From the IMG/VR virus record IMGVR_UViG_3300023181_000010, positions 1 through 51,528 of that record: a DNA stretch of 51,528 nucleotides; one strand, 5' to 3'. Origin of the DNA: a virus. The position numbers and the translations under genes are program-made. The notes under the pieces were generated by a model that did not search any database, was not told the DNA's origin, and saw only the letters and a program-made list of their open reading frames with translations. Of the stretch, positions 64-45,350 are shown piece by piece. The first letter of the stretch is position 1, and the number at the start of each line of letters is the position of its first letter.

Positions 64-127
64 TGACGGCATGCCCGTTCTGACGTACTCGTTCAAGCCG
101 CACGCCCGGCAGCTCACGGCGATGTCG
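1..127. repeat. 127-bp terminal direct repeat (copy 1)
   Basis: These bases are identical to 51402-51528. A repeat of exactly 127 bases at both ends is the usual residue of a de Bruijn assembly with k = 127 of a circular or circularly permuted molecule. It covers the end of the small terminase gene and the first 57 bases of the large terminase gene, which read continuously through the join. It is most likely an assembly overlap and not a biological terminal repeat; the unique length is then 51,401 bp. Confidence 0.93.
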
Positions 128-1516
128 ACGATCACCGACGAACTGTTGTACGGCGGGGCCGCCGGCGGTGGCAAGTCCAGGTGGGCCCGTGCTGAGGGTG
201 TGCGGATGTGCGTGCAGGTCCCCGGCTGTCGGGTGATCCTGTTCCGCCGGACCCGAGGCGACCTCGAGCGGGCCGTCGTCGACTACCTGAGGCAGGAGAT
301 CCCCCGCGGCCTGGCCCGGTACGTCCGGAACCGCCACCAGTGGGAGTTCCAGAACGGGTCGGTGTTCGAGCTTGCCTACCTCGAAAACGACGCTGACCTC
401 GAGAATTACCAGGGTGCCGAATACCAACTGGCGATATTCGAGGAACTGACGCAATTCAGCGCGAAGCAATACCGGTACCTACTGAGCCGGCTTAGGACCA
501 ACAGCCAGACGGTGAAGGACCGGATGAACGAGCTCGGTATCCCGTCGAGGATGATCGCCACGACGAACCCCGGCGGCCCCGGTCACGGGTGGGTGAAGGA
601 ACGGTGGGTTGACCACCTGCCCCACGGGGTGCCGTTCACGCCGGCGGTCACCGAGCTCGACCCGGAACCGCTCGAGCGGTGCTACATCCCGGCGAAGCTA
701 TCCGACAACCCGTCCCTCGACCAGGTCGCCTACCGGAAACAGTTGAACTCGCAGGACCCGACGATGCGCCGGGCCCTGCTCGACGGCGATTGGGACATCC
801 TCGAGGGTGTCCGGTTCGCCCAGTGGCGGAAGAACGTTCACGTCATCCCACCGGATATGCCTCACCTGAACCTCGACGTCCTGGCCGGGTTCCCACGGGT
901 CGTCGCAGTCGACTACGGGTCCGAGGCCCCGTTCTGTGCCCTGTGGGGTGCGCTGCTCCCCGACAACCTGGTGGTGATCTACCGGGAGGCATACAAGACC
1001 GGTCTGACACCGTTGGAACAGGTCGAGTTGATGAAGTCCCTCGAGGTCGACGGGGAACGGATGCCACCGACCCGGCCGATCCCGGTCGTCATGGATCCGG
1101 CTATGTGGATTCGAGGCCCGAACAACCTGCTCAAGGCGATCAACCGGGACGAACCGCCACCCGGGTCGATCGCCTACACCTACGGCCGCGGGTTCGGGAT
1201 GGGCACGATTGTCCGGGCGATCAACTCGAGGATCGACGGGTGGGCCCTGGTCGACGAGCACTTGAGGGTCAGACCGGACGGGTTGCCGCGCCTGCTGGTG
1301 ATGGAGACCTGTACGAACCTGATCCGCACCCTGCCGTCCGTCCCGAGGGACAAACGGCACCCTGAGGACGTCGACACGAAGTCGGAGGATCACGCCGCGG
1401 ATGCGCTCCGGTACCTGCTGATGCACTACGCCCGGGGTGCCCGGCCACGCGGGATAACGACGGTGGGCCGTCGGCCTGCCCCCGGGACTGCTAGTTTGGG
1501 CGACAGGCAGTTTTAA
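71..1516 (+). CDS. terL: Terminase large subunit
   Basis: ATPase-nuclease motor that cuts concatemeric phage DNA and pumps it into the prohead through the portal. The 481-residue length is usual. The N-terminal ATPase has a Walker A (GGAAGGGKS, residues 28-36) and a Walker B ending in the acidic pair E124-E125 (LAIFEE). The C-terminal RNase H-like nuclease shows AVDYGSE (D281), VVMDPAM (D342) and SEDHAADALRYLL (D440, D444), the spaced acidic triad of the Terminase_6C fold. It starts 7 nt after the small terminase stop, with only a weak ribosome binding site, so translational coupling is likely. Identification is secure; the packaging mechanism (cos or headful) is not visible here. Confidence 0.97.
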   Translation: MPVLTYSFKPHARQLTAMSTITDELLYGGAAGGGKSRWARAEGVRMCVQVPGCRVILFRRTRGDLERAVVDYLRQEIPRGLARYVRNRHQWEFQNGSVFELAYLENDADLENYQGAEYQLAIFEELTQFSAKQYRYLLSRLRTNSQTVKDRMNELGIPSRMIATTNPGGPGHGWVKERWVDHLPHGVPFTPAVTELDPEPLERCYIPAKLSDNPSLDQVAYRKQLNSQDPTMRRALLDGDWDILEGVRFAQWRKNVHVIPPDMPHLNLDVLAGFPRVVAVDYGSEAPFCALWGALLPDNLVVIYREAYKTGLTPLEQVELMKSLEVDGERMPPTRPIPVVMDPAMWIRGPNNLLKAINRDEPPPGSIAYTYGRGFGMGTIVRAINSRIDGWALVDEHLRVRPDGLPRLLVMETCTNLIRTLPSVPRDKRHPEDVDTKSEDHAADALRYLLMHYARGARPRGITTVGRRPAPGTASLGDRQF

Positions 1517-2539: not shown

Positions 2540-2872
2540 ATGACTGATCAGCACCCGGCACTAGGCCCGGCTGTTCCGTACGGTGATGGCGACCTCGAGC
2601 CGTTGCAGATGTACCGGGTCACCGACCTGGACATACCGGCAGCGGTCGACCCGTGGTCCCTCGACGGTGGCACCTACTCCGGCCGGACCATCATGAACAC
2701 CGTCCGTGATGGTCACAACGGGTCCGGCAACCTGCTGGTGCAGGTGTGGCCCGGCGCGTTGCACAACCCGGCGTCCCGGGCGTGCTCCCAGGGTGCCGAC
2801 CGGACCGAGCACGACCCGGCCGCCCAGTGCCCGATCTGCCAACCTGACCCGGCGAACCCGTGGCCGTTCTGA
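2540..2872 (+). CDS. Hypothetical protein with C-terminal zinc-ribbon-like cysteines
   Basis: 110 residues, start ATG 2540 with a good ribosome binding site (GGAGGAA) that overlaps the end of the preceding gene. The C-terminus holds ACSQGADRTEHD and QCPICQPDP, a Cys/His-rich pair that may bind one zinc. The last 13 bases overlap the methyltransferase gene that follows. I recognise no family; it is one of several small zinc-ribbon-type proteins in this genome. Confidence 0.65.
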   Translation: MTDQHPALGPAVPYGDGDLEPLQMYRVTDLDIPAAVDPWSLDGGTYSGRTIMNTVRDGHNGSGNLLVQVWPGALHNPASRACSQGADRTEHDPAAQCPICQPDPANPWPF

Positions 2873-4149
2873 CCCCGCCACCGGTCGTCCACTACGAGGA
2901 CGGCGACGTGACCGTCTGGCACGGCGACAACGTCGTAGCAATGGCACAGATGCCGGCCGATTCCGTCGATGCCGTGGTGTGCGACCCCCCGTACAACCTC
3001 GAGTTCATGGGTCACGGGTGGGACAAGGTGATTGATTTTCAGACCTGGTGCACCCAGTGGGCGACTGAGGCGTTCCGTGTCCTCAAGCCGGGTGGGCACC
3101 TGCTCGCATTCGGGGCCCCGAGGACCGCTCACCGACTCACCGCCGGCATCGAGGACGCCGGGTTCGACATCCGGGACGGAATCGCGTGGATCTACTCCAA
3201 CGGATTCCCGAAGTCCGCGAACGTCACCGACGGCATGACCGCCTACCTCGACGGTGTGCCCCTGGTCGTCGACGAGGGCCGCAGGTTGGCCGCCCTGCCG
3301 ATCACGGCGTTCCTGGCGGCCGCCCGTGACGTCGCGGGGTGGACAAACGCCGACATCGACCGGCTGTTCGGCACGTCCGGTATGGCCGGGCACTGGACGA
3401 CCCAGGGGAAGCAACCGGCCGCGCCGACGTGGGAACAGTGGTCGATCCTGCGGGCCGAACTGGGATTCGACAGCTCGATGGACGCCGCGGTGATCGAGTA
3501 CGGCGCGAAGAACCGGGCCCCGGAAAGGCTCGAGCCGGACGGCAGGCCGTTCCTGAACAACCTGCGGAAGGACCGTGCCGCCCCCGGTGCGACCGGTTGG
3601 GGAACGGCCCTGAAACCCTCCCAGGAACCGATCACGGTGGCCCGCAAACCGTTCAAGGGCCCGACGATCCGGAACGTCGCCGACCACGGCGTCGGTGGGC
3701 TGAATATCGACGGGTGCCGGTCCGTCGACGATGACGGGGTGGAGCGGTGGCCGGCGAACGTCGTAATCGACGCCGACACCGCGGCCGTCCTCGACGAGGT
3801 GACCGGCTCGAGGGAACCGTGGTCGGAAGAACCGGTCGACGGCGCAGCCCGTTTCTACCCGGTGTTTCGGTACCAGGGGAAGGCCGCCCAATCGGAGCGC
3901 CCCAGGGTCGCCGGTGAGGGTCACGTGACGGTGAAGCCGCTCGAGCTGATGCGGTGGCTCGTCCGGCTCGTCACCCCACCAGGTGGTGTGGTGCTGGACC
4001 CGTTCGCCGGGTCAGGGACAACCGGTGAGGCCGCGCTGGCCGAGGGTATGCGGACGGTGCTGGTCGAACAGCACGGCCCGTATTTGCCACTGATCATGCA
4101 ACGGGTTCACCGGTCCTACCCGACGTTGCCGTTCGAGGTGGGGCCGTGA
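2860..4149 (+). CDS. DNA methyltransferase, N6-adenine/N4-cytosine type
   Basis: 429-residue amino-methyltransferase of the beta class. The catalytic motif IV DPPYNLEFM (D42-Y45) comes first and the AdoMet-binding motif I DPFAGSGTTGEAAL (from residue 380) near the C-terminus, so the variable target-recognition region lies between them (about 150-350). DPPY favours adenine-N6 methylation. No restriction enzyme is next to it, so it is an orphan enzyme that probably protects phage DNA against host restriction or marks it for packaging or regulation; target sequence unknown. Start GTG 2860 overlaps the previous gene by 13 nt. A second, unrelated methyltransferase lies at 37089-38063. Confidence 0.92.
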   Translation: MAVLTPPPVVHYEDGDVTVWHGDNVVAMAQMPADSVDAVVCDPPYNLEFMGHGWDKVIDFQTWCTQWATEAFRVLKPGGHLLAFGAPRTAHRLTAGIEDAGFDIRDGIAWIYSNGFPKSANVTDGMTAYLDGVPLVVDEGRRLAALPITAFLAAARDVAGWTNADIDRLFGTSGMAGHWTTQGKQPAAPTWEQWSILRAELGFDSSMDAAVIEYGAKNRAPERLEPDGRPFLNNLRKDRAAPGATGWGTALKPSQEPITVARKPFKGPTIRNVADHGVGGLNIDGCRSVDDDGVERWPANVVIDADTAAVLDEVTGSREPWSEEPVDGAARFYPVFRYQGKAAQSERPRVAGEGHVTVKPLELMRWLVRLVTPPGGVVLDPFAGSGTTGEAALAEGMRTVLVEQHGPYLPLIMQRVHRSYPTLPFEVGP

Positions 4150-5115: not shown

Positions 5116-7608
5116 ATGACCGTTGAACAGATCACCGTCGACACCCGGCACTCGACGATCGGGGCCGACGTCGCCGTGACCCGCGGGCTCGAGGTCCACC
5201 CGCTCCGCATGGTGAAAGGCGACTACCTGAGGACCGCCGAACCGTTCAACGTCGACGTGATCGGCGGTCTGGCCGTGTTCAACGTCGACACCACGTTGCC
5301 CGGGCAGGTGATCAAATTCGTCGAGCTGTGGCCCACCGGCACCACCAGGTGGTGCCAGGTCACCGACTCCCGCCCGTATCACCTCCTGGTCGACGTCGAC
5401 CGGCGGACCCTCGACCCCGTCGGCCCGCAACCATCCCCGGCGTGGGTCGCCTACGTCGAGGGGCTGATGGAGTCCTACGACACCGCGGCCGAGCTGGTCG
5501 GCAACGCAGACCAGGCCGTCACCGACGCCGTGGCGGCCGCGGTCCGTGCTGAGGCCGCCGCGATCGAGGCCGAGCTGTCCGCCGGCGGGATCGGGTCGGC
5601 GGTGGAGGACGCGATCGCCGCTGCTGCTGAGGCCGCGGCCGCCGCGCTCGGTGCGCAGGAATCGTCGGCGACGTCGGCCACCCAGGCCGGTGTCGCGACG
5701 TCGGCTGCTGGTGCTGCTGGTGGGTCCGCCACGGCGGCCGCGGGTTCCGCCGGGGCCGCGGCCGGGTCGGCGACGACAGCGATGACGGCGGCCGGGACGG
5801 CCACCGGGGCCGCCACGAACGCGAACACCGCCCGGAACCTGGCCGAGGACGCCGCAAACGACGCCCACCAGGACGCGATTGCCGCCGCAGGATCGGCCAC
5901 CAGCGCGAACACGGCACGGGTCGGTGCCGAGACTGCCCGGACCGGATCGGAAACGGCTAGAACCGAATCGCAGACCGCCCGAACCGACGCGCAGACCGCC
6001 CGGACCGGTGCTGAGACCGCACAGTCCGCGGCCGCCGGGTCGGCCACCGCGGCCGCCGGATCCGCTACTGCCGCCGCGGACAGCGCCGCCGCGGTGGCGA
6101 ACTACTACCCGTCGATACCGCAATTCACGGCCCCCTACCGTGCCGCCGCCGGCAACGGCCCGCCCACCGTCGGCGTGTCGATCAGCCCGACAGCGTCGCC
6201 GTCGTCCCTGATGCAGCGGAACACCGCCGGGCAGGCCGTGGCCGTCGCACCGACCGACCCGACCCACCTCACCCCGAAGCAATCGGTCCTCGACGCGCTG
6301 CTCGCATCGAACAACAACGGCACCCGGACGAACCTGGCAACGAACCCGTCATTCGAGACCGTCGTCGGCGGAACGGCCCTACCTGGCACCGGCGGTGTCG
6401 CCGCACTGACCCGGGCAACCGTCGGTGGCGCGAAATTCGGGACGTCCTACCTGCGGTCACTGTGGTCGACCAGCTCGACGGCCGCCGGCGGGAACCTGGC
6501 CGGCGGTGGCCTGTCCGGGATCTCCGGGGTGTTCAACACCACCCCCGGCGCGACGTATTCGATGTCGGCGTGGGTCCGACCGTCCAAGACGATTTCCCTG
6601 ATGCTCCGGTTCGACCCGACCGGGTTCGCCGCTGTCAACGGCCCGGCGGTGTCCTGCCCGGCGAACACCTGGACACGCCTCACCGTGACGACAATCGCCG
6701 GTGGCACCACCGCGAACTCGAATGTCCTGGTCGCCGCTGGTGTGGCCGCCCCGACGTGGTCCGCCGGTGACACCCTCGACGTCGACGGGATCTGTGTCGA
6801 GCTCGGTGACACCCCGGGTGAGTATTTCGACGGTGCGTCGCAGAACGCCTACTGGACCGGGACGGCCCACCAGTCGTCGTCGGTCGGTGTGTTCGACGCT
6901 GTCACCGTTGAGTCCCTGGCGGCCGCGGTGGCCGGTGTTCTGGCCCAGGCATGGCCGCTGTCGATGGTCACGGCGAAAGGCGACCTGATCAGTGGGTCGG
7001 CCGCCGGGGCCCTGTCTCGCCTGCCGTCGACGTCCGTCACCGACGGTGCGTTCCTGATGAAGAACGCCGGCGGGGCCGGTGGCATGTTGTGGTCGACGTA
7101 CCCGTTCCTGTCCGGCACCGGGTCGCCCGAGGGCAGTAGGGTCGCGCCGCCCGGCACCCGGTACGTCGACACGAACAACACGTTCGGTGTGCCCGAGTGG
7201 GTCAAGCGGACCGGCACCGGCAACACCGGGTGGACGCCCGTTGTCGGCGACACCGGGTGGCGATCGGTGTCGATCGACGCCGGCAGCTCCGGCACGGCTA
7301 CGAACGTCCTCATCCGCCGGTCCGGTGACCTGGTGATGATGGAGATCATCGGGTTCGCCTGCCCTGACGGGTCGCCGTCGCAGCCGATTCACACCCCGGT
7401 GGCCGGGTTCCGTTCCCGTGGCGGGACGGCCGTCTATCAGCCGTTTCGGGCATCCGGGACGACCAACCTGATCAACATCTACATGGCCGGCGGTGGATCG
7501 GTGTCGTTCTCCGGAACGTGGGCATCGGCGAATGGTTCACTGAATGCCCGTGTCCAATGGCTGACGTCCGATGCGTGGCCGACGAGTCTCCCAGGGAGTG
7601 CAGCATGA
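5116..7608 (+). CDS. Long tail fibre / receptor-binding protein with coiled coil and jelly-roll domain
   Basis: 830 residues. Residues 1-120 are a beta-rich N-terminal attachment-like domain. Residues 125-345 are an almost pure Ala/Thr/Gly coiled coil that includes five heptads of type TARTGSE. The middle (about 400-580) begins NLATNPSFE and contains TPGATYSMSAWVRPS and DVDGICVELGDTPGEYFDG, the pattern of CBM4/9-like jelly-roll carbohydrate-binding modules. The C-terminal third, with RYVDTNNTFGVPEWVK and DTGWRSVS, resembles phage fibre ends. It likely forms a trimeric fibre binding cell-wall glycan. Its place between packaging and head genes, away from the second fibre (31971), is unusual. 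It overlaps the next gene by ATGA. Confidence 0.8.
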   Translation: MTVEQITVDTRHSTIGADVAVTRGLEVHPLRMVKGDYLRTAEPFNVDVIGGLAVFNVDTTLPGQVIKFVELWPTGTTRWCQVTDSRPYHLLVDVDRRTLDPVGPQPSPAWVAYVEGLMESYDTAAELVGNADQAVTDAVAAAVRAEAAAIEAELSAGGIGSAVEDAIAAAAEAAAAALGAQESSATSATQAGVATSAAGAAGGSATAAAGSAGAAAGSATTAMTAAGTATGAATNANTARNLAEDAANDAHQDAIAAAGSATSANTARVGAETARTGSETARTESQTARTDAQTARTGAETAQSAAAGSATAAAGSATAAADSAAAVANYYPSIPQFTAPYRAAAGNGPPTVGVSISPTASPSSLMQRNTAGQAVAVAPTDPTHLTPKQSVLDALLASNNNGTRTNLATNPSFETVVGGTALPGTGGVAALTRATVGGAKFGTSYLRSLWSTSSTAAGGNLAGGGLSGISGVFNTTPGATYSMSAWVRPSKTISLMLRFDPTGFAAVNGPAVSCPANTWTRLTVTTIAGGTTANSNVLVAAGVAAPTWSAGDTLDVDGICVELGDTPGEYFDGASQNAYWTGTAHQSSSVGVFDAVTVESLAAAVAGVLAQAWPLSMVTAKGDLISGSAAGALSRLPSTSVTDGAFLMKNAGGAGGMLWSTYPFLSGTGSPEGSRVAPPGTRYVDTNNTFGVPEWVKRTGTGNTGWTPVVGDTGWRSVSIDAGSSGTATNVLIRRSGDLVMMEIIGFACPDGSPSQPIHTPVAGFRSRGGTAVYQPFRASGTTNLINIYMAGGGSVSFSGTWASANGSLNARVQWLTSDAWPTSLPGSAA
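5926..6060 (+). repeat. Heptad-encoding repeats in the fibre coiled coil
   Basis: Within the fibre gene the sequence encodes consecutive seven-residue units of the form TART(G/E/D)(S/A)(E/Q), followed by degenerate AAAGSAT units. The 21-bp period is visible at the DNA level and offers sites for slippage or recombination that would change fibre length. Confidence 0.7.
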
Positions 7609-36891: not shown

Positions 36892-37092
36892 ATGATCGAC
36901 ACCATCGAGCTGTTCCCCGCCCCCACCCGGTCCGTCGCAGTCGTCGAGGGTGTGGCCGGCGGGTCAATCGCCGTCCGGCACCAGGCCCCCGGGCTGGTCC
37001 GCCTGTCCATCGTCGCCGCAGACGGCAAGGTGTCTCACCTGATCGTCGCCGTCGCCGACCTGGATTCCGCGTGTGCGCAGGTAGCACCGTGA
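36892..37092 (+). CDS. Hypothetical protein
   Basis: 66 residues from ATG 36892, 2 nt after the preceding stop. Beta-rich (RSVAVVEGVAGGSIAVRHQA, LVRLSIVAADGKVSHLIVAV). Coupled by GTGA to the cytosine methyltransferase. Unknown function. Confidence 0.55.
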   Translation: MIDTIELFPAPTRSVAVVEGVAGGSIAVRHQAPGLVRLSIVAADGKVSHLIVAVADLDSACAQVAP

Positions 37093-38063
37093 CCCGGCGC
37101 GCACCGATCGAGCGGACCGCGATCGACCTGTTCGCCGGCGGTGGCGGGTCGTCGCTCGGTCTGACCGCGGCCGGGTTCGAGATCCTGGCGGCCGCGAACC
37201 ACTGGCCGACGTCGGTCCGCACGCACGAGCTGAACCACCCGCACACCCAGCACTTCACCGCGAATTTGGCCGAGACCGATTTCCGGCTGTTCCCGCGGGC
37301 CCGGTTCGCGTGGGGATCCCCGTCTTGCGTGTGGCACGCCCGAGCTGGTGGCCGGAAGAAACCGCCGGCCGAGGTCGAACAGCTCCGCGCCGACGCCGGC
37401 GCGATCAGCCGGGCGACCGCGTTCGCGATCGTCGAGGCCGCTGAGGTCTGGGGATTCGACGGGGTGATCGTCGAGAACGTCCAGGAATTCGCGGACTGGA
37501 CCCTGTTCGACGCGTGGCGCGGTCTGATGCACGCACTCGGCTACCAGTCCCAGACGGTTGTCCTGGACTCCGCAACGGTCGGCCCGGTGCCGGTGGCCCA
37601 GCACCGGAAACGCCTGTACGTGGTGTTCACCCGGGCCGGGAACGTAGACCTGTCCCTGGACCCGGCACCGATCACGCCGGCGTCGACGATCCTGGACCCG
37701 AACCCGGGCAAGCTGGTCAGCCGGACCCTGTACGTCGCCGACCAGCTCGCCCAGATCGACGACTACGACCGCCCGCACCTGGTGACGTTCCGGAAGCACG
37801 CCCGGGCGAAGGCCGCGGACACGCACGCACTGGCGACGATCACCGCCGGCGGGAACCACCACGGCGTCGCCACCCGCACCCGGGCCGGGATGTTCTTCCG
37901 GATGCTCACCAACCGTGAGCGCGCACGGGCCCAGGGATTCCCCGACACCTACCAATTCCACGGGAAAGCCGATGAGGTCCGGGCCCAGATCGGCAACGCC
38001 GTCACGGTGCCGGTGGCAACGTGGCTCGGTCACCGTGTCGCCACCGCGGTCGGTGCCCGATGA
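37089..38063 (+). CDS. DNA cytosine-C5 methyltransferase
   Basis: 324 residues from GTG 37089 (GTGA). Motif I IDLFAGGGGSSLGL (from residue 12), motif IV GSPSCVWHA with the catalytic Cys80 (PSC in place of the usual PCQ), motif VI VIVENV (E129), motif VIII QHRKRLYVVF, motif IX LTNRERARAQGFPDTY and motif X QIGNAVTVPVA are all in order, so the enzyme should be active. It transfers methyl from AdoMet to cytosine. No cognate nuclease nearby; likely anti-restriction. Target unknown. Confidence 0.95.
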   Translation: MTRRAPIERTAIDLFAGGGGSSLGLTAAGFEILAAANHWPTSVRTHELNHPHTQHFTANLAETDFRLFPRARFAWGSPSCVWHARAGGRKKPPAEVEQLRADAGAISRATAFAIVEAAEVWGFDGVIVENVQEFADWTLFDAWRGLMHALGYQSQTVVLDSATVGPVPVAQHRKRLYVVFTRAGNVDLSLDPAPITPASTILDPNPGKLVSRTLYVADQLAQIDDYDRPHLVTFRKHARAKAADTHALATITAGGNHHGVATRTRAGMFFRMLTNRERARAQGFPDTYQFHGKADEVRAQIGNAVTVPVATWLGHRVATAVGAR

Positions 38064-38901: not shown

Positions 38902-39455
38902 CCGATGAGACCCCCACCGCGCCGCGGTACGCGCACGTCGCCTACCCGCCGGTCGACGGGATGAAGCACATCGCCGGCGAACGATGGGCCGGTGCTGACC
39001 TGCAAACCGTCCGCTACCACCTGGCCCGGGCGTTCGCGTTCGGCCGCGGCATCCTTCACGTGGGCCCTGAGGCCGGGCCGGACGTGTGGCCCGAGGCGAT
39101 CCCCTACTTCCACGCCGCCTACGAATCGGCGATGACGTGGCACCTGCTGGTGAACGAGGACGTGAACGGCCCGTGTGACACACCCCTGTCGCCGTCGTGG
39201 ATCGCCGCCGAGCTGTCCGCCGAGCTGGCATCGCCGCAGAATTTCGCTGCGAACCTCAAAACACTGATGGAGCTGTACGACGTCGACCCGACGTCGTTCG
39301 ACCCGTACGACCCGCCGCCCCGGAAACAGGACCCTGTCGATGCGCTGGCCGTGGCAACGGCCGACCTGTTGGTCCGGTGGGCCGCCAACGACGCGACCAA
39401 CGACGACGTCCGCGCCGCGGCCGCCCTGTTCGATCAGGCCCGCCGTCATGGGTAG
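38898..39455 (+). CDS. Hypothetical protein
   Basis: 185 residues, ATG 38898 (ATGA). Mostly helical with AYESAMTWHLLVNEDVN and SWIAAELSAELASPQNFAAN, and a C-terminal Ala-rich helix (ALAVATADLLVRWAAND). No motif recognised. Overlaps the next gene by 8 nt. Confidence 0.55.
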   Translation: MTDETPTAPRYAHVAYPPVDGMKHIAGERWAGADLQTVRYHLARAFAFGRGILHVGPEAGPDVWPEAIPYFHAAYESAMTWHLLVNEDVNGPCDTPLSPSWIAAELSAELASPQNFAANLKTLMELYDVDPTSFDPYDPPPRKQDPVDALAVATADLLVRWAANDATNDDVRAAAALFDQARRHG

Positions 39456-39993
39456 CGCGCCGCAGTGGCAGTCCCGGTCGTGGGCCGTGCTGTCCGAAGA
39501 TGAGAAGTACCGGTACCGGCTCGGTCGCCGGTGGGCCGACGACGGGCCCACCGCGCTGTTCGTGATGCTGAACCCGTCGACCGCCGACGGCACCGACGAC
39601 GATCCGACGATCCGCCGGTGTGTCGGGTTCGCGAAACGCGAAGGTGCGGCCGCCCTCGAGGTGGTGAACCTGTTCGGCTACCGGGCGAAGGACCCGCGGT
39701 CGATCGCCACGATGGCCGCGACCGACGCCGGCCGGCTCGAGCTGGTCGGCCCCGACAACAACGCCCAGATCGCCGAGGCCGCCGAACAAGACCACATCGG
39801 GATCATCATCGCCGCGTGGGGTGCCGGGTTTGGCGTGAAGTACCGCGGCCCCGAGGTGGTGAAGCTGGTCGAGTCCGTCAACCCGAACCCGGTGATGTGT
39901 CTCGGTCACACCGCGGCCGGGTTCCCGAAACACCCGCTGTATATCCGGTCGAACGCCCCGCTCGTTCCGATCTCAGGAGATCCCCGTGGCTGA
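39448..39993 (+). CDS. DUF1643 family protein
   Basis: 181 residues from ATG 39448. It has the full DUF1643 signature: ALFVMLNPSTADGTDDDPTI with the N-PSTAD core, RRCVGFAKREGAAALEVVNL, LFGYRAKDPR, and IIIAAWGAGFGVK, ending MCLGHTAAGFPKHPLYI. The family is widespread in phages and mobile elements and its biochemical role is not known. In this operon it lies among modification genes. Confidence 0.9.
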   Translation: MGSAPQWQSRSWAVLSEDEKYRYRLGRRWADDGPTALFVMLNPSTADGTDDDPTIRRCVGFAKREGAAALEVVNLFGYRAKDPRSIATMAATDAGRLELVGPDNNAQIAEAAEQDHIGIIIAAWGAGFGVKYRGPEVVKLVESVNPNPVMCLGHTAAGFPKHPLYIRSNAPLVPISGDPRG

Positions 39994-40625: not shown

Positions 40626-40672
40626 AACGGCCCGGCCACCAGGTGCTCCCCTGATGCTGCGGCCGGGCCGTT
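40626..40672 (+). terminator. Intrinsic terminator after HTH gene
   Basis: AACGGCCCGGCC and GGCCGGGCCGTT (12 bp) enclose a 23-base loop with a possible inner AGG/CCT stem. It ends the HTH unit, so the recombination genes downstream need read-through or another promoter. Confidence 0.8.
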
Positions 40673-40704
40673 CATCGACGAACCCCCACGAAAGGAACCA
40701 TCGA

Positions 40705-41859
40705 ATGACCACCACACTACCCGCCGCGATCACCCGGAAGGGCCCCGGACGGCCGTCCGTATCGCACCCCGCGGCCCGGGTGCTCATCCCCGCCGCGAAG
40801 CTCAGCGACCGCGGCCGCTGGAAGGCCGCCCGCCGGCAGGGCATGACGGCCACCAACACCCGCGTCCTGATGGGTCACGGCTACGAGTCCGAGAACGTCA
40901 TGTCCGTCTACCTCGACAAGGTCGACCCGGAACCCGTCGACGGTGACGACGCCCCGGCGACGCAGTGGACCGAGGCAAGCCGGTTCCGGCTCCGGCTCGG
41001 TAACGAGTCCGAGGCGATGATCGCGAAGTTCGCCGCCGAGCTGCTGGACCTGCGGATGTCGAAGGTCGGCATGTTGCAATCCCTGATGTATCCCGAGCTG
41101 ATCGCCTCACCGGACCGCACGACGTCGGACGGTGCACTGTGTGAGCTGAAATTGACGTCGTCGCACTACCTGCTCGCCTACCTGGACAAGTCGTCGTCGT
41201 GGACGAACGCTGAGGGCTGGACCCTGCCCGGGTCGTGGCGGGTGCAGGTGCAACACCAACTGGCGGTGTCCGGCCGGACGCACGCCTACGTTGCCGCGCT
41301 GGTCACCGACAAGTCGCAGATGACGGCGTGGGTCGTCGAGGCTGACCCTGAGGAACAGGGCCAGATCGTCGAGCTGAACCGCCGATTCTGGTGGGACTGT
41401 GTCGTCCCACGGAAGGTCCCGGACATCGACTGGGACACCGTCACCAGGCAGGAAATGTTCCTCCGGTTCCCGCACGCCGACGGGACCCGCACGGTCACCG
41501 GCGACGAACTCGACGTAACGCTGTTCTGGATCCGGCAACGGAAACTGGCGAAGGAACAGGAGAAGGAGGCTAAGGCCCTGGCCGATTTCGCCGAAAACCA
41601 TCTGCGGGAGATCCACGGCCCGGCGGCCGAGCTGTACGCCCCCAACGATCCGCGGGCCCTGTCGAAGTACCCGCGGATGGAGTCTGTGAACTACGACGCG
41701 AAACGACTCGCCCTGGATCACGCGATCGACCTCGAGCCGTACACGAACCGCACCCCGTACCGGAAGTTCACGTCCGTTCGGGACCTGTCGAAGAACCCGC
41801 TGGTGTCGCTGATCAAGGCCCCTAAGAAGCGGGCCCGGAAGGTCGCCCCCGATGCCTGA
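40705..41859 (+). CDS. YqaJ-like phage exonuclease (PD-(D/E)XK)
   Basis: 384 residues from ATG 40705 with AAAGGA upstream. Signature of lambda-exo/YqaJ nucleases: RLGNESEAMIAKFAAEL (E at 101-103), then PDRTTSDGALCELKLTSS with the catalytic D-x(n)-ExK (D137, E147, K149), and WRVQVQHQLAVSGR (the conserved Gln motif). The first 95 residues are an unusual basic N-terminal extension. It resects double-strand ends 5' to 3' for the annealing ATPase encoded next (overlap of 8 nt). Confidence 0.9.
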   Translation: MTTTLPAAITRKGPGRPSVSHPAARVLIPAAKLSDRGRWKAARRQGMTATNTRVLMGHGYESENVMSVYLDKVDPEPVDGDDAPATQWTEASRFRLRLGNESEAMIAKFAAELLDLRMSKVGMLQSLMYPELIASPDRTTSDGALCELKLTSSHYLLAYLDKSSSWTNAEGWTLPGSWRVQVQHQLAVSGRTHAYVAALVTDKSQMTAWVVEADPEEQGQIVELNRRFWWDCVVPRKVPDIDWDTVTRQEMFLRFPHADGTRTVTGDELDVTLFWIRQRKLAKEQEKEAKALADFAENHLREIHGPAAELYAPNDPRALSKYPRMESVNYDAKRLALDHAIDLEPYTNRTPYRKFTSVRDLSKNPLVSLIKAPKKRARKVAPDA

Positions 41860-43030
41860 ACTCGCCGCTACGAAGCTCCGGACCCGGCCGCCGACGGGTA
41901 AGCCGGCGTGGCCGTTCATCGTCCTCGCCGGGGTGCAGTCCGGCGGCAAGTCCTACCAGGCCGCCCTTGCCACCGGGTCGGCCCGGGTCGGACAGGCGTT
42001 CATGTTCGAGTTCGGCGAATCCCAACAGGACATGCTTGCCGCGATCCCCGGTGCCCGGTTCCACATGGTCGAACTCACCGGCCGATTCAACGACCTACTA
42101 GAACAGGTGCTCGAGGCATCGAAGATCGACTGGGTCGACGGGAAACCGAACCTGCTCGTCCTGGATTCGGTGTCGAAGGTCTGGCAACTGCTGTGTGATG
42201 AGGCCCAGTGGACCGCGAACAAACGCGTCGCCGACAAGATCGCCTACGCCTCACGGCAGGGCCGGGAGTACCGCGGCCGCGCCGCGGACCCGGTCACCAA
42301 CGACTACGACATTTCGTCGGACCTGTGGAACCGGGCGACGATGCGGTGGGACAAGCTCATCGCCGCGTTGCAGAAATTCCCCGGCATCGTCATCGCAACA
42401 GCCCGGCTCGACGAGGTGTCGGTGTTCGACGCCCAGGGCAACATCACCCGCGACAAGATGTGGAAGATGCAGGCCCAGAAGCGGTTCCCGTTCGAGGTCG
42501 ACGTGATCATCGAGATCCGGGAACCCCGCGGGGTGCCGATCGTGACGAAGGTCCGGTCGTTGGCCTACGACGTGCCGATGAACAGCGCCGAGAAATTCGA
42601 CGGGTTCACCGCCGACGCGCTGCTCGAGCGGATGCAACTCACCGTCGAGAACACCGGGCCCCGGGTGATCGTCATCCCGGACGCCGAAGAGAAGGACGAC
42701 GCCCACCCGGACGATTGGCCGGCGACGATCGAAGAGTTCTTCAAGATCGTCGAGGCCGCCGGGAACGCGAAGGACACCGCCCGGCTGACGCACTTGTGGA
42801 AGCTGGCCCGGCAGCATGAGAGCGCACAAGGGCAGGAGTACGCGGCCGAGTGGGGCCGCTATGTCGCCGGGGTGCAACGCGATGAGGAAGCCGAGCGGGC
42901 CCGAATGCAGGCCGAGGCCGACCGGATCGCCGCCGAACCGGACCGCCCCGATTTCGGCGACACCCCGCCGCCGGCGGGCCGCCCGGTGAACGACCCGCGT
43001 GCCCGGGCCCGAACCGGTGCACCGGCGTGA
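41852..43030 (+). CDS. RecA-like ATPase, Sak4-type annealing protein
   Basis: 392 residues. Walker A GVQSGGKS (27-34), Walker B LLVLDSVSK (D105), and a RecA-fold spread through RWDKLIAALQKFPGIVIATA and QKRFPFEVDVIIEIRE. This AAA_24/Sak4-like type is found beside phage exonucleases and works as a single-strand annealing or strand-pairing protein. The C-terminal 100 residues are charged and helical (AERARMQAEADRIAAEPDRP). Its position after the YqaJ nuclease supports a recombination pair. Confidence 0.85.
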   Translation: MPELAATKLRTRPPTGKPAWPFIVLAGVQSGGKSYQAALATGSARVGQAFMFEFGESQQDMLAAIPGARFHMVELTGRFNDLLEQVLEASKIDWVDGKPNLLVLDSVSKVWQLLCDEAQWTANKRVADKIAYASRQGREYRGRAADPVTNDYDISSDLWNRATMRWDKLIAALQKFPGIVIATARLDEVSVFDAQGNITRDKMWKMQAQKRFPFEVDVIIEIREPRGVPIVTKVRSLAYDVPMNSAEKFDGFTADALLERMQLTVENTGPRVIVIPDAEEKDDAHPDDWPATIEEFFKIVEAAGNAKDTARLTHLWKLARQHESAQGQEYAAEWGRYVAGVQRDEEAERARMQAEADRIAAEPDRPDFGDTPPPAGRPVNDPRARARTGAPA

Positions 43031-43709: not shown

Positions 43710-44162
43710 ATGCCCGAAGTAACCCCTGTCCTGATCAAGCTGTGGGCCACCGTCGCCCCGGCCGACGTGTGCTGGTCGGCCGCCGCTGGTGGCCCGGCCC
43801 GCCGCCCGTCGGCCCCGCAGTCCGGTTTCATGTGGGCCCTGTACCGGAACCCCCCTGAGGGGATGAAGTCCGCGTCGTGGAACGTCGACGGCGCGTCGAT
43901 CCGGATTCACACCCCGGACGGCCCGAAGGTCCGGACGATGTCCGAGAAGTGGGCGGTCGTCGACGCGTGGCTGTCGACCCTGGCACCGGTGGACCGTGAG
44001 TGGTTCGCCGACCACGCTCACTGGTTCGCGAACGCCGCCACACCACCGGCCGCCCGGGTACAGGCCGCCGCGACCCTGCTTGCCCGCCTGGAAGAGCTGA
44101 CGGCACCGCCGGGGGAGTCGCTGACCCTGTTCGATGATCTCGACTACTCCGGCCATGCCTGA
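43710..44162 (+). CDS. Hypothetical protein preceding the initiator
   Basis: 150 residues from ATG 43710 with GAAGGA. Contains WNVDGASIRIHTPDGPKVRT, VDREWFADHAHWFANAATPP and a helical end. Overlaps the replication initiator by 8 nt and shares its promoter. No family recognised. Confidence 0.6.
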   Translation: MPEVTPVLIKLWATVAPADVCWSAAAGGPARRPSAPQSGFMWALYRNPPEGMKSASWNVDGASIRIHTPDGPKVRTMSEKWAVVDAWLSTLAPVDREWFADHAHWFANAATPPAARVQAAATLLARLEELTAPPGESLTLFDDLDYSGHA

Positions 44163-44862
44163 GGGACCCGCCGACGGTGTCGAACCCGTCGGACTGTTCG
44201 AGTGGCAGACGTTGATCCGCCGGTGGCAACCGACCGACGGTGCTGAGAAGCGCGCCAAGGCGACAGCCCTGTTTTTCGCGACCTATGGCAACAAGTTCGG
44301 TGGGTCGATCCACGTCGGGCAGAAGAAGCTGGCGCGGGTCGTGTCGGTGTCTGAGAGCACGATCGGCCGGCACCTCGAGATCCTGGTCGAGCGTGGGTTC
44401 ATCGAGCGGACCCGGCGCGGCAACCGCCACGCTCAGCAAGCGGATGAATACCGATTGACGTTTCCGATCAATGGTTTCGACGGCCGTTTGCGGATGCTCG
44501 ACCCGTCCGAGAACGGCATTATGAAAAATGATCTCTACCCGTCACCGGTGACGGGTAGAGTTGTCCCCACGGAACCGGTCCAACCTTCACCCGTGACGGT
44601 TGGACCGGCCACCGCGCCCGATGTCCAACCGTCACCGGTGGAAGGTCTAACCGTCAAAACGGAGAGTCCAACCGTCACCCATGACGGACCACCAGAACAT
44701 AACCACCACCCAAGACCAGAACAGACGACTCAAGTACCCGACGTACCTCACCACCCCACGGCACGGGTCCCGATCCAAAGAAATTCCCCTCGAGGAAACT
44801 ACGAACCCCAAAACCCGTATTACCGCCAATACCTCGACGATCGAAAGGCAGCCGGACGATGA
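44155..44862 (+). CDS. Winged-helix replication initiator with embedded origin
   Basis: 235 residues from ATG 44155. Residues 1-100 form a winged helix: ALFFATYGNKFGGSIHVGQK, KLARVVSVSESTIGRHLEIL (HTH) and VERGFIERTRRGNRHAQQAD (wing), as in phage initiators of lambda O/DnaD-associated type. From residue 120 the protein is a low-complexity Pro/Val/Thr linker with repeated PSPVT units. The DNA for that linker contains five 13-bp iterons, so the linker is shaped by the origin. The C-terminus (ARVPIQRNSPRGNYEPQNPY) may bind a host helicase loader. ATGA overlap downstream. Confidence 0.8.
   Translation: MPEGPADGVEPVGLFEWQTLIRRWQPTDGAEKRAKATALFFATYGNKFGGSIHVGQKKLARVVSVSESTIGRHLEILVERGFIERTRRGNRHAQQADEYRLTFPINGFDGRLRMLDPSENGIMKNDLYPSPVTGRVVPTEPVQPSPVTVGPATAPDVQPSPVEGLTVKTESPTVTHDGPPEHNHHPRPEQTTQVPDVPHHPTARVPIQRNSPRGNYEPQNPYYRQYLDDRKAAGR
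44533..44690. other. Putative replication origin: phased iterons inside initiator gene
   Basis: Forward 13-mers TCTACCCGTCACC (44534), TCCAACCTTCACC (44579), TCCAACCGTCACC (44624), TCTAACCGTCAAA (44646) and TCCAACCGTCACC (44667) are spaced 45, 45, 22 and 21 bp, whole helical turns. The first three are followed by inverted copies, making a perfect 28-bp palindrome at 44533-44560 and an imperfect one around 44575-44608. Downstream (44690-44850) the sequence is unusually A/C-rich with low GC for this genome, a candidate unwinding element. This mirrors the lambda origin within gene O. Confidence 0.75.
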
Positions 44863-45350
44863 CACCCATCACCACCGAGCACCGGACTGTGGCTTGCGCG
44901 GCACTCGCCGTCGCCGCACAGTCCGACGGCGCGATCGACGACACGTCCGCGCACCTGATCCGAACGTTCGCCTACGCCGTCGCCACCCCGGCCCCGCCGA
45001 TGACCCTCGACGAGGTGACCACCGCGGTCCGCACGCACTACGCCGTCGCCGGTGCCGGGCACCTCACCCCGCAGGCGCTGATCGATGCGGTCCGCGCCGA
45101 ACGTCTGGCGGCCGCGAAGGCCGCCCGGCTGACGTCGAACCGGCCACCGGCACCGGACCCGGTCGAGGTCGCCGCCGCCACGGAGTACCGGCGTGCCGTG
45201 CGGTCGGTGCCGTGCCCGGAACCGGGTTGCGGTGCCGCTGTCGGTGCCCCGTGCATGAACCCGACCCGCGACCGGCCGTACCACGGCCCCGGTCACCTGT
45301 CCCGGGCCCGTGCTGGCGCACCGGTGGACCTGTTCGCGGCCGCCCGGTGA
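44859..45350 (+). CDS. Hypothetical protein with C-terminal zinc finger
   Basis: 163 residues, ATGA overlap. Helical N-terminal half (VACAALAVAAQSDGAIDDTS, TLDEVTTAVRTHYAVAG). C-terminus VPCPEPGCGAAVGAPCMNPT then YHGPGHLSRAR is the CxxxxC...C...H-x3-R finger common in actinophage proteins. Located directly after the initiator, so it may assist replication; no direct evidence. Confidence 0.6.
   Translation: MTPITTEHRTVACAALAVAAQSDGAIDDTSAHLIRTFAYAVATPAPPMTLDEVTTAVRTHYAVAGAGHLTPQALIDAVRAERLAAAKAARLTSNRPPAPDPVEVAAATEYRRAVRSVPCPEPGCGAAVGAPCMNPTRDRPYHGPGHLSRARAGAPVDLFAAAR

Follow-up and report, generated by a model that had tools for sequence, protein, structure and literature searches.

In the early region of an unclassified tailed phage, we find what is very probably a theta-type replication origin lying inside its own initiator gene, in the style of lambda (O) and SPP1 (gene 38). 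The window, meaning the whole stretch of 51,528 bp analysed, is an entire virus record of about 68% GC that is classed as linear and may be incomplete. It encodes a terminase large subunit and Mu-type portal, baseplate J and tape-measure proteins (Table 1), and no DNA-level match to its 40-51.5 kb part was found among INPHARED phages. Early genes are ordered as exonuclease, RecA-like ATPase, small genes, initiator, zinc-finger protein and HNH-like protein. Relatives of the exonuclease and of the RecA-like gene were sought in IMG/VR, and none were found for either. The best named relatives of the ATPase are in Rhodococcus, Gordonia and Mycobacterium phages, from which we infer that the host is probably an actinobacterium. 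The early region also encodes a DUF1643 protein (39340-39993; Pfam E 4e-35), and two DNA methyltransferase genes are found in the record (2860-4149 and 37071-38063). The gene after the terminase (1539-1994) weakly matches the Acb2/Tad1 hairpin domain (E 9e-4; 19.8 bits against a cut-off of 27), and its product is a possible anti-CBASS or anti-Thoeris sponge.

The initial annotation had described five 13-mers at 44534, 44579, 44624, 44646 and 44667, spaced by 45, 45, 22 and 21 bp, and all five are present, with 2, 1, 0, 3 and 0 mismatches, respectively, to the consensus TCCAACCGTCACC. Inverted copies at 44547 (2 mismatches) and 44592 (1 mismatch) complete the first two palindromes. The first 13-mer and its inverted copy do form a perfect 28-bp palindrome, as had been reported. 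No palindrome of the window is longer (its half-length is 14, that of the runner-up 9), and half-lengths in 100 shuffled genomes reach 11 at most. The cluster is also the record's densest region of direct and inverted repeats combined (59, with 36 for the next, in a tail gene, and a maximum of 19 in 20 shuffles). That second densest region spans 5338-6114, inside a minor tail gene (5116-7608). We prefer to describe the array as four palindromic sites plus one extra half-site, with site centres at 44546.5, 44591.5, 44636.5 and 44679.5, that is, 45, 45 and 43 bp apart. The 13-mers had been called helically phased; at 10.5 bp per turn, this is true of the 22- and 21-bp spacings, which equal two turns, but not of 45 bp, which is 4.29 turns. 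The spacings agree with those of similar phage initiator genes.

Table 1. Coordinates of the candidate origin, its gene and other features of the window
Feature	Position	Strand	Description
Terminase large subunit	71-1516		
YqaJ/RecE-like exonuclease	40654..41859	+	early region, shared with initiator gene
AAA_24 RecA-like ATPase	41852..43030	+	early region, shared with initiator gene
O-like replication initiator gene	44134..44862	+	242 aa; PHROGs and Pfam HTH_36
Winged-helix DNA-binding domain	44251..44403	+	residues 40-90; Pfam HTH_36 and MarR
Iteron site 1	44533..44560	no strand	perfect 28-bp palindrome, CTCTACCCGTCACC/GGTGACGGGTAGAG
Iteron site 2	44578..44605	no strand	near-perfect palindrome, GTCCAACCTTCACC/CGTGACGGTTGGAC
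Iteron site 3	44623..44650	no strand	left arm perfect, right arm degenerate
Extra half-site	44646..44658	+	TCTAACCGTCAAA; 3 mismatches; between sites 3 and 4
Iteron site 4	44666..44687	no strand	GTCCAACCGTCACC/CATGACGG
Candidate DNA unwinding element	44696..44845	no strand	A/C-rich on + strand; least stable 150 bp of record
Next gene	44859..45350	+	163 aa; helical N-terminal part (predicted), phage zinc-finger C-terminus; Phage_zn_bind_8

The repeats fall in a low-complexity linker rich in P, V and T, where peptide repeats could yield DNA repeats by default, and Val-Thr codons in GC-rich DNA do give GTCACC/GTGACG. This explanation is contradicted by a test in which synonymous codons were shuffled 100 times with the protein kept and k-mer pairs were scored. 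The initiator gene scored 33 for direct repeats (shuffle mean 2.6, maximum 10) and 45 for inverted repeats (mean 3.5, maximum 12.5), values that the same-protein shuffles never reach. Six other window genes had no excess over their own shuffles. Lambda O, with its annotated iterons, was positive for direct repeats (14 vs a maximum of 6). TP901-1 rep had been included as another positive control but gave no significant excess, which means that initiator genes of this kind can escape the test. One DNA core, GTCACC, is moreover used in two frames, encoding S-P-V-T at sites 1-3 and, unlike these, V-T-H-D at site 4, and a perfect 28-bp palindrome is no property of a peptide. The peptide differs between these sites and the DNA stays constant. 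The codon-shuffle result shows that the constraint acts on the DNA and not on the protein. We reject the peptide-repeat explanation as extremely improbable, and given the codon-shuffle result and the two-frame reading, the earlier idea that the Pro-Val-Thr linker has been shaped by origin DNA is well supported.

The gene that carries the sites has an alternative start (ATG at 44155, overlapping the upstream stop). Residues 37-146 of its product match phrog_270, annotated 'replication initiation protein' (3.4e-8), and further matches are to the replication initiation or O-like families phrog_391 (2.2e-5) and phrog_345 (1.3e-4). Because phrog_270 alone is promiscuous, being matched in all control genomes, we base the identity of the initiator on several concordant initiator families together with the early-gene position and the iterons. 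Searches of IMG/VR, GTDB genomes and INPHARED gave no close homologue, and a single-sequence AlphaFold model has a pLDDT of 44. The HTH_36 and MarR matches are both just above the curated cut-off, and ArsR and other regulator families match below it. The protein could accordingly be a transcription regulator without a replication role, acting on early transcription through operators in its own gene; palindromic sites are indeed typical of dimeric repressors. We nevertheless regard this as unlikely, since replication initiators are the better PHROG matches, the sites extend over 150 bp deep in the gene beside the record's least stable DNA, which is the layout of an origin, and the core that they share with other phages (see below) is found mostly in initiator genes.

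Directly 3´ of the repeats, the candidate unwinding element has a nearest-neighbour stability of -1.442 kcal/mol per step, compared with a mean of -1.626, and ranks first in the record; in the same profile, the record's stability minimum for 50-bp stretches is at 44772-44821. An A/C-rich, lower-GC stretch had been noted after the iterons, and GC over 44690-44830 is in fact 0.546 vs ~0.68 for the record. With 54% GC, the flank counts as AT-rich only by comparison with the genome; it stands on the 3´ side, where a lambda-like origin has its melting tract. The unwinding elements of lambda and SPP1 occupy the equivalent place, beside the iterons (PMC7466680; PMC6316719). Among the comparison loci, the DNA immediately after the repeats ranks within the lowest few percent of its locus for stability in lambda, Pippy and Tonitrus, and is outside that range in Jollymon, prophiGD05-3, L020 (a wHTH gene described below), Cerasum and Megabear. 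GC skew, which had been proposed as a check, has no switch or inflection at the site and was uninformative.

As had been stated, the record encodes no recognisable polymerase, primase or helicase. These families and ParA/ParB were without a match among the 70 predicted proteins (Pfam, E 1e-3), and six-frame searches of the record for DnaB_C, DNA_pol_A, Prim-Pol and IstB/DnaC were empty; this absence is provisional, as a record classed as linear may lack an end. The same profile search bears on whether the repeats could instead be a partition (parS-like) site or have another structural role in the DNA that has nothing to do with the start of replication. In actinophages, parS sites consist of short repeats in arrays, and some of these sites are found immediately after repA (PMC7157519), which would fit such a role. 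A partition or structural site is nonetheless very unlikely here, as no partner protein for a parABS system was detected by that search and the sites are intragenic and long palindromes, not 8-bp direct repeats.

A helicase loader of the P, DnaC or G39P type was also sought next to the initiator, with no IstB/DnaC or Inhibitor_G39P match. For the next gene in particular, the idea of a G39P-type loader gained no Inhibitor_G39P match in the profile search, its structure model is helical at low confidence (pLDDT 57), and a PDB fold search with that model gave nothing below E 1.6. By its position, the product is a candidate that could serve as a helicase-recruiting partner. The C-terminal part of the initiator has no recognisable helicase-recruiting domain. 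Actinobacteria have DciA as a helicase operator (PMC5109545).

On the minus strand, two features at 44518-44560 overlap the first palindrome: a match that resembles a promoter, and a 12-bp stem that resembles a terminator and is followed by a T-rich tail. The palindromes might thus act at the RNA level, as hairpins in the early mRNA or, for the first, as an antisense-strand terminator, and single-strand folding is strong (z -6.8). Good folding is expected from any set of palindromes, though, a single terminator-like match is the shuffle level (mean 1.0), and there is neither an Rfam match nor a known minus-strand gene here. An RNA-level function in place of an origin is therefore highly improbable, but one could coexist with it.

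For the origin, we suggest a model in which the winged-helix initiator, as dimers, would bind the four palindromic iterons within the part of its own gene that codes for the flexible linker. The resulting nucleoprotein complex would melt the adjoining A/C-rich stretch, and the C-terminal part of the initiator may bring the host DnaB-type helicase, then host primase and polymerase, to the melted strand, possibly with help from the product of the next gene. The initial annotation's lambda-like origin inside an initiator gene is partly supported: the iterons, the DNA-level constraint, the initiator family, the low-stability flank and the lack of detectable replisome genes are seen directly, and from these we infer binding, melting, helicase recruitment and use as an origin. 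That the O-like initiator gene contains a lambda-like origin has high but indirect support. The part of the claim that is not supported as stated is that the sequence is new; it is so only in part, as described below.

The lambda origin in gene O (iterons at 39034-39118 of NC_001416), a published origin with an unwinding element (PMC7466680), resembles the window in having an O-like initiator, several dyad-symmetric iterons in mid-gene, a 3´-side flank of low stability, a further early gene immediately after the initiator gene, dependence on the replisome of the host, and direct repeats that are positive in the codon-shuffle test. The iteron sequences differ, as does their geometry: lambda iterons are 18-19 bp long and 20-24 bp apart, whereas those of the window are palindromes of 22-28 bp that are 43-45 bp apart. 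In addition, the flank is AT-rich in lambda but A/C-rich in the window, where a P protein is not recognisable. SPP1 oriL in gene 38 likewise has direct repeats and an unwinding element within the initiator gene (PMC6316719), but that phage itself encodes a DnaB-type helicase (gp40) and a loader (gp39), and the window has no recognisable counterpart of either.

Linker repeats following the DNA-binding domain are also present in Tonitrus gp63 (18-mers spaced by 24, 23 and 22 bp), Jollymon gp75 (13-mers spaced by 18, 23 and 25 bp), Pippy gp71, prophiGD05-3 gp30 and the wHTH gene L020, which carries palindromic GGGGTGACACTGGTGTCACCC-type repeats in the closest terminase relative (L010, 51% identity). 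The four named genes resemble the window's in being positive in the direct-repeat codon-shuffle test, and their phages also encode a homologue of the RecA-like ATPase. Between their initiators and that of the window, no similarity is detectable by tblastn, and the repeat sequences differ. Wetzel et al. suggested that some mycobacteriophage RepA origins may lie in repA, as in lambda (PMC7157519). Given this suggestion and the actinophage linker repeats, the probable intragenic origin of the window belongs to a kind that is already known.

As to the sequence itself, no relative was found for the whole 13-mer: the long iteron pattern has two matches in IMG/VR, both isolated single sites in unrelated genes, one of them GroEL-like. 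Its core is not new to nature, since GTCAC-N2-GTGAC is common to many unrelated phage initiator genes. The window has three dyads with at most one mismatch to this core in the initiator linker, GTCACCGGTGAC (44541), TTCACCCGTGAC (44586) and GTCACCCATGAC (44674), the first being its dyad core. GTGAC/GTCAC words also occur in the L020, Jollymon and Cerasum repeats, which led to a search of IMG/VR by bare DNA pattern (GTCAC-N2-GTGAC, 5-35 bases, GTCAC-N2-GTGAC, 5-35 bases, GTCAC). At least 120 stretches matched, compared with 7 and 0 for permuted controls of equal per-dyad base composition (CATCG-N2-CGATG and CACTG-N2-CAGTG, respectively).

Of these stretches, at least 120 in number, 80 loci were examined (L026-L105; GC range 0.38-0.73). 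Most of them have the pattern in the linker after a winged-helix or other initiator N-terminal domain, and clustering of the 80 hosting frames at 50% identity gives 43 groups. When 42 representatives were compared with PHROGs, families for replication initiation, O-like proteins, DnaD-like loaders and primosomal proteins came up most often, and eight of ten individually checked hosting genes match a replication-initiation, O-like or replisome-organizer family (E 1e-5). The examined set does include false members, such as a repetitive tail-like protein (L088). Most dyads are read in two frames (83 and 40 times, with 8 in the third), and their spacings cluster at 21-24, 33-35 and 43-45 bp. Binned at 21-24, 32-35 and 43-46 bp, 50 of the 60 spacings are included, as are 24 of the 28 that are not divisible by three and that tandem peptide repeats cannot explain; the bins were set after viewing the histogram, which makes p-values optimistic. 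The 45, 45 and 43 bp of the window fall in the third group. The initiator genes of this set thus resemble the window's in dyad core, position in the gene and spacing groups, and PHROG families 270, 678, 391, 345, 8540, 1032, 8102 and 4617 overlap between them. The window differs in its longer palindrome (CCAACC flanks) and in having an exact core match at only one of its four sites.

In bacterial genomes, the same pattern occurs at 89 places in 257 Gb, and 18 of the 80 examined resemble the viral initiator set, so the pattern alone is no proof of an origin in bacterial DNA; many other matches are in simple repeats or outside plausible genes. The control core CATCG-N2-CGATG itself forms an array in an initiator-like phage protein with a QSSGDD linker (L147:7190-7284 and L148:7414-7508), suggesting that other initiators use other cores. 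We found no earlier description of a GTCAC-N2-GTGAC iteron core in the open-licence literature.

For a genome without a match among catalogued phages, the analysis locates a likely origin and its initiator to base-level precision. More interesting than this single origin is the recurrence of the core at one and the same place in initiator genes that differ greatly, which points to a recognition sequence that is widely shared. It is about an even call whether highly diverged O-like and DnaD-like initiators, in phages of many bacterial groups, use one linker core, GTCAC-N2-GTGAC, at spacings near multiples of ~11 bp, as an ancient or convergent origin code. In uncultivated phages, the core behaves as a key with which origins can be sought. 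With a real shared code, origins could be found and initiators assigned to them by DNA pattern alone, origins and compatible initiators would become predictable across many metagenomic phages, and how an initiator and its iterons stay matched within one gene would become directly testable.
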